DNA from: a virus
DNA: 21,513 nucleotides
IMG/VR virus record: IMGVR_UViG_3300035204_000266
Location: 1 to 21,513 of that record
Reading direction: 5' to 3' (one strand)
Shown: positions 12,647 through 21,414 of the stretch, piece after piece
Layout of the letters: every line of letters starts with the position of its first letter
How positions within the stretch are numbered: position 1 is the first letter of the stretch
Program-made: the position numbers and the translations under genes
The notes under the pieces: model-generated
Told to the model about the DNA's origin: nothing
Database searches by the model: none
What the model saw: the letters and a program-made list of their open reading frames with translations, nothing else

Positions 12647-12662
12647 TTTACTGTACAGTAAA
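12647..12662. promoter_or_regulatory. 16-bp palindrome, copy 1 (terminase promoter)
   Basis: This is a perfect TTTACTGTACAGTAAA palindrome, placed between a putative minus-strand -10 and the start codon of the small terminase. A protein bound here would block initiation of the whole late operon. Confidence 0.75.
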
Positions 12663-20070: not shown

Positions 20071-20110
20071 GGCGGGGCCGGGGACTTATCCTTTCTTCCT
20101 CGGCTCCGCC
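20071..20110 (+). terminator. Stable hairpin directly before palindrome copy 8
   Basis: GGCGGGGCCGGGGA (20071-20084) pairs with TCCTCGGCTCCGCC (20097-20110) over 14 contiguous base pairs, two of them G-U, around a 12-nt loop. C and TTT follow, the TTT being the start of the palindrome. This is a probable terminator of the upstream operon with a short T tract, or a fold that acts with the palindrome. Confidence 0.6.
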
Positions 20111-20127: not shown

Positions 20128-20141
20128 GAGAAAGGTTGACT

Positions 20142-20216
20142 ATGTACCCCAAATGTATCATACTTGATGCTTATGGAGGACGAGTCATTAGGAGATACAA
20201 CCGCTGTTATATCTAA
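20142..20216 (+). CDS. Possible 24-aa leader peptide
   Basis: ATG 20142 has an excellent binding site (GAGAAAGG, 6 nt spacing) and reads MYPKCIILDAYGGRVIRRYN before RCYI and a stop. It overlaps the following gene, whose own starts lack a binding site, so its translation may deliver ribosomes to that gene. A short peptide that is only a leader is the simplest reading. Confidence 0.4.
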   Translation: MYPKCIILDAYGGRVIRRYNRCYI

Positions 20217-20379
20217 AGCCACCCCCGATGTTGACGCAACGAGGAGTGGACTTCATGTGAGGATTACGGCCCACCACCACGACAAGCTGGCCATGATGGT
20301 CAGGGAAACCGGACGGTGCAGATGGGACATAATAGAGAGACTGATAGATATGGCGAAGGTTGGCGAATACTCAGAATAA
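20173..20379 (+). CDS. Ribbon-helix-helix type DNA-binding protein candidate
   Basis: From ATG 20173 this gives 68 residues. The first 25 or so look disordered. The rest, SGLHVRITAHHHDKLAMMVRETGRCRWDIIERLIDMAKVGEYSE, has the form of a ribbon-helix-helix repressor: a short beta strand (HVRIT), helix 1 (HHDKLAMMVRE), a turn with Gly, and helix 2 (RWDIIERLIDMA). Such proteins bind palindromic operators as dimers of dimers. A GTG at 20257 behind GAGGAG would give a minimal 40-residue form. It is the first gene after palindrome copy 8, so it could be the regulator of the palindrome set and control itself. This is inference. Confidence 0.55.
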   Translation: MEDESLGDTTAVISKATPDVDATRSGLHVRITAHHHDKLAMMVRETGRCRWDIIERLIDMAKVGEYSE

Positions 20380-20382
20380 TCT

Positions 20383-20446
20383 GGAGGGGTTGCATTGCTT
20401 CTCTTGGGCATCCACAGCCCATACCTCCTTGCGATGTAATCCCTCC
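20383..20446 (+). terminator. Nested RNA fold filling the gap before the nuclease gene
   Basis: GGAGGGGTTGCATTGC (20383-20398) pairs with GCGATGTAATCCCTCC (20431-20446) over 16 contiguous pairs, three of them G-U. An inner TGGGC (20405-20409) with GCCCA (20417-20421) hairpin lies in the loop. TTTT follows. It may terminate transcription or control the nuclease gene, whose ATG 20457 lies 10 nt later and lacks a ribosome binding site. Confidence 0.6.
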
Positions 20447-20456
20447 TTTTAATTAA

Positions 20457-20792
20457 ATGAACAGCAGATCGAAAGGCAAGCGAGGTGAACTGGAATGGCG
20501 GGATGTCATCCGCTCGCATGGCTACGAGGCTCGGCGGGGACAACAGTTCTCAGGCAATCCAGACAGCCCAGACGTAGTGACTAACCTGCCCTTTCACTTT
20601 GAAGTTAAGCGAGTCGAGAGACTCAACATAGACAACGCAATGAAACAAGCAGAAGGCGAGTGCGGGGAGAAGCCACCACTGGTTGCCCATCGTAAGAACG
20701 GTGGCCCTTGGATGGTGACGATGCTCGCACCAACCTTCTTTAACCTGATAGAAGAAAGAGAAACCAATGCCAAACAAAGAAAGCAGCAGTGA
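20457..20792 (+). CDS. Holliday junction resolvase-like nuclease (Hjc/PD-(D/E)XK type)
   Basis: This 111-residue protein has the short PD-(D/E)XK nuclease layout: a basic N-terminus with KGKRGELEW (acid near residues 11-13), PDSPDVV with Asp39, and FHFEVKRV with Glu49 and Lys51 as the likely catalytic residues. The size and spacing match archaeal-type Hjc and phage resolvases that cut branched DNA before packaging. It overlaps the ERF-type gene by 26 nt. ATG 20457 lacks a binding site; a later ATG behind GAGGTG would remove the first acidic motif, so I keep the long form. A different PD-(D/E)XK nuclease is possible. Confidence 0.78.
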   Translation: MNSRSKGKRGELEWRDVIRSHGYEARRGQQFSGNPDSPDVVTNLPFHFEVKRVERLNIDNAMKQAEGECGEKPPLVAHRKNGGPWMVTMLAPTFFNLIEERETNAKQRKQQ

Positions 20793-21329: not shown

Positions 21330-21414
21330 TGAGGGATGGGCAGCAGCGATGGCACATTTCTCATGCGGCAGCTTCGCTCCTGCCGCGCCTCCGCCGTGAC
21401 CTGCCTGTCCCTCA
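21330..21414 (+). promoter_or_regulatory. Nested RNA fold after the recombinase gene
   Basis: TGAGGGATGGGCAG (21330-21343) pairs with CTGCCTGTCCCTCA (21401-21414) over 14 contiguous pairs, two of them G-U. Inside, GCGGCAG (21365-21371) pairs with CTGCCGC (21380-21386). The fold fills almost the whole gap between two genes. No T run follows, so a terminator is less likely than a processing or regulatory element. Confidence 0.58.

Follow-up and report, generated by a model that had tools for sequence, protein, structure and literature searches.

The window, which here means the whole 21,513-base virus record analysed and which belongs to a tailed phage on the basis of terminase and portal matches, carries a conserved plus-strand RNA fold, E1, in the gap behind a small RHH-type gene, and E1 defines a new family of conserved phage RNAs without a counterpart in Rfam 15. 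The stem letters of E1 vary between related phages, whereas one unpaired stretch, CCUCCUU, is identical in every distinct copy. The features of E1 and its surroundings are as follows.

20071 to 20110, plus strand: E0, hairpin resembling a terminator for the upstream operon, with the loop UCCUUUCU (20089-20096), the complement of AGAAAGGA (fold, relatives)
20136 to 20164, plus strand: RHH promoter, TTGACT-17-CATACT, with 8 nt between its end and the ATG (promoter scan)
20173 to 20379, plus strand: small RHH-type gene, always directly 5' of E1, with its start at or near +1 of the promoter (relatives, sequence pattern, promoter scan)
20383 to 20446, plus strand: E1, whole element, a conserved structured RNA 3' of the RHH stop codon (fold, relatives, covariation)
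20383 to 20398, plus strand: 5' arm of the E1 outer stem P1, partner 20431-20446 (fold, covariation)
20405 to 20409, plus strand: 5' arm of the E1 inner hairpin P2, partner 20417-20421 (fold, hand alignment)
20417 to 20421, plus strand: 3' arm of P2 (fold, hand alignment)
20423 to 20430, plus strand: E1 3' junction, unpaired ACCUCCUU, with the letters of the anti-Shine-Dalgarno (anti-SD) tail of 16S rRNA (motif count)
20431 to 20446, plus strand: 3' arm of P1 (fold, covariation)
20457 to 20792, plus strand: PDDEXK/RusA-like nuclease gene without a Shine-Dalgarno (SD) sequence (PHROGs and Pfam matches, SD duplex scan)

The fold has the form described in the initial annotation, namely an outer stem of 16 bp, three pairs of which are G-U, and an inner hairpin, here of 5 bp, and it occupies the space from the RHH ORF, whose last base is 20379, to the nuclease ATG at 20457, starting 3 nt past the RHH stop and ending 10 nt short of the ATG. 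Its MFE is -34.4 kcal/mol (z score of -6.2), a stability reached by 0 of 200 shuffled sequences, and 6 of 10,726 64-nt windows on both strands of the record are at least as stable. E1 sequences from the window and 8 sources gave no match to Rfam 15 at the curated (gathering) cut-off; at an E-value threshold, sub-threshold matches alone appeared, mostly chance matches of the microRNA type, and the element of L013 scored 11.1 bits with the suhB model, for which the gathering score is 41. A literature search and Rfam 15 likewise yielded no description of an E1-like phage element.

Relatives were collected by a nuclease-based search, which returned 35 viral loci, and by a search with an RHH alignment, which returned 21 loci. 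A fold of the E1 plan lies 1 to 5 nt past the RHH stop codon in all 21 other RHH-encoding viral contigs, a set that includes near-identical contigs and several refetched from the nuclease search. A covariance model made from 10 E1 copies and run on 93 loci recovered 22 copies of full length, along with two truncated fetches of a single additional contig; all full-length matches occupy the same place after the RHH gene, one per contig, and the sole remaining match is the minus-strand echo of a true site. No additional copies were detected in the 93 loci or in 7 bacterial loci that encode related nucleases, E1 is absent from L017 to L036, whose nucleases are 59 to 63% identical, and a search for RHH relatives in bacterial genomes found none. 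The gene 5' of E1 is an RHH gene in every E1 locus. By eye, the nuclease directly follows E1 in the window, in L003, -004, -009, -013, -037, -038, -122, -123, and -125, and in the truncated L008, at an E1-to-ATG distance of between about 10 and 40 nt, and a different ORF, in some cases with its own SD sequence, follows in the remaining loci, which are about half of the relatives. Since the gene after E1 varies and the RHH gene is constant, E1 belongs to the RHH gene rather than to the nuclease gene, and the proposal that the fold holds the nuclease start region in a regulated state does not extend to the family.

Stem letters vary between E1 copies, and the alignments indicate that pairing is kept by compensatory change. 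In an alignment fitted to the model, with 18 distinct copies and 20 modelled pairs, which leaves out L004, L007, and L125 (elements identical to those of L003, L006, and L122, respectively) and the truncated L008/L045, 92.4% of cells are paired, against a shuffled mean of 84.3%, and 9 of the 20 pairs show changes on both sides, against a shuffled mean of 5.1. The observed values for paired cells, both-side changes, and covariation score are reached by none of 500 shuffles, and shifting the partner column by 1 to 3 positions lowers the paired cells to 48 to 57%; the measure of further pair types is unexceptional, being reached by 52 of 500 shuffles. Because the model alignment takes the structure as its guide and has related rows, an independent hand alignment of 14 copies was made, from which the near-identical L003, L006, L014, and L123 were omitted. 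Standard pairs fill 296 of its 311 cells (shuffled mean of 265 and maximum of 277 in 1000); both-side changes are seen in 13 of its 27 pairs (shuffled mean of 6.8, maximum of 11). The compensatory changes by which the initial annotation proposed to check the stem are thus present in relatives, and uncompensated breakage of pairs was not found in them. The hand alignment also contains 41 G-U cells and 0 A-C cells, and since A-C is what G-U becomes on the opposite strand, the selected RNA is the plus strand, as the G-U pairs of the single window fold had already suggested. A function on the minus strand was rejected on the same counts. Relatives retain neither the SD-like AAGGAGG that precedes an ATG on the window's minus strand nor the frame of a possible leader peptide that begins with TTG in the 5' arm and stops in the 3' arm (both by eye). 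E1 thereby adds a well-supported structured RNA to those of phages, with covariation enough for a model.

The constant part of E1 is unpaired. The 3'-junction letters CCUCCUU are identical in 18 of 18 distinct copies, the full ACCUCCUU is present in 16 of the 18, and the stems and the other junction vary; the unpaired junctions of E1 are 81% pyrimidine. CCUCCUU is the sequence of the anti-SD end of 16S rRNA. The junction could pair with a GGAGG in E1's own 5' arm in groups A, B, C, and E of the five groups into which the copies fall, but in group D (L010, L013, and L015) the 5' arm lacks GGAGG and CCUCCUU is retained, so the motif is not preserved for pairing within the element. No conserved AAGGAGG-like partner in cis was found across the 17 loci scanned. 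Among individual candidates, an AGGAGG in the RHH coding part (Arg-Arg codons) of several relatives is missing from the window, L010, and others, and the lysin ribosome-binding site (RBS) GAGGAGGU, complementary to the loop over 8 nt in the window, is replaced in L040 and L038. No conserved target RBS for the E1 loop was found. Most RBSs of the window phage are GAAAGGA, with which only five letters of the loop (UCCUU) pair. Matches of 8 letters to the 16S tail number 3 in the sense direction of the window, with about 3 expected by our own arithmetic, which is not above chance, and a 16S match sought in one genome of a likely host was not found.

The RHH gene itself appears to have a near-leaderless message. 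The RHH label of the initial annotation fits the sequence pattern of the protein and has no Pfam or PHROGs model match behind it. A promoter-like pair (-35 TTGACA/T, a spacer of 15 to 17 nt, and a -10) precedes the RHH gene in relatives, with the -10 ending 7 to 11 nt before the RHH ATG in the best-scoring pair of 18 of 20 loci (including L009, L012, and L014, in which promoter positions were shifted by 3 nt by eye) and in the two others by eye. The plain reading of this conserved promoter is that the RHH mRNA would start at about +1 and be about leaderless. The near-leaderless message that had been suggested for the nuclease is thus not borne out, the promoter evidence concerning the upstream RHH gene instead. 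Upstream of the promoter, the loop of E0, UCCUUUCU, complements the main RBS motif of the phage; by eye, a clear GAAAGGA or AGAAAGGA precedes 7 of 19 plus-strand starts in the window. Most relatives have CCUUUCU or a near form in this loop with different stem letters (by eye). The E0 loop of group D is possibly boxA-like instead, the boxA sequence being UGCUCUUU. The palindrome TTTACTGNNCAGTAAA, one copy of which lies in the same region, occurs nine times (0.10 expected), at 12647, 12989, 13311, 14313, 14987, 15185, 15976, 16702, and 20112 on the plus strand; the copies are intergenic, one lying just 5' of the RHH promoter, and they are likely operators of a phage repressor. Other palindromes occur at the RHH promoter in several relatives.

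The gene downstream of E1 had been labelled Hjc-like, which is right in kind: the protein matches PHROG_244, "RusA-like," with an E value of 5e-19, and Pfam PDDEXK_15 below the cut-off of that model. The reported lack of an SD sequence was confirmed, as the duplex of the nuclease ATG region with the 16S tail has an energy of +2.9 kcal/mol, the weakest among 36 starts. An ORF that has its own AAAGGAA separates E1 from the nuclease in L002, L005, and L006, and the lack of an SD sequence at the window nuclease goes with the absence of that intervening ORF. An HTH-like ORF overlaps the nuclease start in L017, L019, and L021, and in L030 to L034, where E1 is absent, an RHH-like ORF overlaps it by about 25 nt. 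Such overlapping ORFs in other lineages suggest that the nuclease gene is used to coupling.

The phage terminase is nearest to those of Akkermansia phages (35 to 38%), and the best bacterial match of the nuclease is a Verrucomicrobia MAG (63%), from which a Verrucomicrobiota host is guessed. A second conserved nested RNA fold, E2, lies 3' of the ERF gene at 21330 to 21414 on the plus strand. The letters of its outer stem differ among relatives with pairing retained, its core is CAGCGAUGG...CCUACGCCGUGACC with the variant AAAGAUAGCC...GGCUACGCCGUGA, and no Rfam model matched it above threshold. The stretch between 14640 and 14760 on the plus strand contains short tandem repeats of type CCCTGTTATAATGC, each with a TATAAT-like word.

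Regarding function, we tentatively favor E1 as an element of the 3' UTR whose exposed anti-SD sequence would pair in trans with ribosome-binding sites, a proposal that we hold to be quite possibly correct. The long, covarying P1 and the short P2 hold the pyrimidine-rich internal loop open with CCUCCUU on its 3' side, and the loop would pair with purine-rich RBSs of other mRNAs, of the phage or of the host, and lower their translation. The acting form may be the RHH transcript itself or a processed fragment, and the carrier mRNA would be spared because the RHH start is leaderless and the nuclease start has no SD sequence. Counted in favor of this proposal are the compensatory fold, the invariant loop, the single copy per phage found only after the RHH gene, the retention of CCUCCUU where the 5' arm lacks GGAGG, the lack of a conserved partner in cis in the loci scanned, an E0 loop that complements RBSs, and the layout shared with alpha-r14 sRNAs; counted against it are the lack of a conserved target, the five-letter pairing with the main RBS, and 16S-tail matches at chance level. 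A broader variant, which we regard as very unlikely, is that E1 is an abundant decoy of the 16S tail that would occupy SD sites broadly and lower SD-dependent translation of host or late phage genes, while the leaderless RHH gene and the recombination genes, being independent of SD sequences, would remain translated; if it were true, a viral mimic of the ribosome tail would shift the translation mode of the cell. If the loop does pair with RBSs, it offers a testable route by which a phage may favor leaderless or SD-less messages over SD-led ones, and E1 suggests an unrecognized phage control over which messages are translated.

Other explanations account for parts of the pattern. E1 might be a processing or stability hairpin, serving as a site for an RNase III-type cut or as a block to exonucleases and separating the RHH mRNA from that of the nuclease and ERF genes, and its very stable stem, its constant position 1 to 5 nt past the stop codon, and its two helices flanking an asymmetric internal loop in a location between early genes, as at T7 RNase III sites, agree with this; however, CCUCCUU is invariant in 18 of 18 copies while stem letters change, and we know of no RNase III-type site that needs an invariant 7-letter unpaired motif with a variable stem, which leaves this explanation rather unlikely. 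Binding of a protein, either the RHH protein or a host CU-binding protein, in a feedback on expression of the RHH gene or operon is unlikely. It would be in keeping with the company of E1 and RHH in 21 of 21 other RHH contigs and with an invariant single-stranded motif and junctions that are 81% pyrimidine, and a protein reading CCUCCUU would leave the same conservation pattern; RHH proteins are, on the other hand, known as DNA binders, a palindrome or other operator-like DNA lies 5' of the RHH gene in part of the set, and the motif is a known RNA-RNA pairing sequence.

Termination, which the initial annotation had raised, is distinctly unlikely in the form of a transcription attenuator or terminator for the nuclease and ERF genes. 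The stem is followed by UUUUAAUU in the window, and U-rich tails occur in groups A, B, and C. They are lacking in groups D and E (L009 to L015, 7 of 20 loci); since two of the five groups are without it, termination is not the common function. Moreover, E1 is not among the terminator-scan results, its invariant internal loop is not needed by a terminator, and the stem-to-ATG gap of only 10 nt leaves no room for a promoter in between. There is only a slight chance that E1 is a coupling device, with ribosomes that end at the RHH stop melting or skipping the hairpin and restarting at the SD-less nuclease ATG. The missing SD sequence and the ORFs that overlap the nuclease start in L030 to L034, L017, L019, and L021 would suit such a device, but in roughly half of its loci E1 is directly followed by another ORF, sometimes SD-bearing, and the spacing to the nuclease ATG ranges from about 10 to 40 nt.

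Among known systems, T7 RNase III sites, which lie between early genes, are long intercistronic stems interrupted by an internal loop; E1 differs from them in its invariant unpaired motif and in its occurrence after one gene only, once per phage. The cI mRNA of phage lambda transcribed from PRM is leaderless, and it resembles the window in that a promoter puts the start codon of a small phage gene of the DNA-binding type at about +1. This likeness concerns the RHH gene rather than the E1 fold, and we know of no E1-like 3' element of lambda cI. A phage precedent for pairing with an RBS is the c4 RNA of phages P1 and P7, in which unpaired stretches pair around the RBS and block translation (PMC12197685). 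The c4 RNA acts on one named gene (ant), whereas E1 has no defined target, and the lack of any gathering-level Rfam match for E1 means that it matches no c4 model either, if Rfam has one.

The closest likeness in layout is to the alpha-r14, "cuckoo," and CcsR RNAs of alphaproteobacteria (including NfeR1 and CcsR1 to CcsR4). In PMC7143759, alpha-r14 sRNAs are described as having "hypervariable" stems and unpaired anti-SD motifs, and the combination of variable stems with a kept unpaired anti-SD sequence is also found in E1. In addition, PMC10253847 describes some CcsR RNAs as cotranscribed with ccaF1, a small-protein gene with a DUF1127 domain, and E1 likewise follows a small-protein gene, that of RHH. 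The alpha-r14 and cuckoo RNAs consist of hairpins in tandem, each carrying the motif in its terminal loop, and lie on bacterial chromosomes, after DUF1127 genes or alone, whereas E1 is one nested fold of phages with the motif in an internal loop after the RHH gene. The motifs also differ, CCUCCUU in E1 compared with CCUCCUCCC in cuckoo RNAs. E1 has no gathering-level match to known Rfam models, including those of the suhB/mmgR clan, the comparison with cuckoo RNAs being one by description. Without tandem terminal-loop hairpins and without a model match, E1 is therefore not filed as a member of the cuckoo or alpha-r14 RNAs, and by analogy it may at most work like one. If its loop does pair with RBSs, phages would have independently reached the layout of bacterial anti-SD sRNAs.
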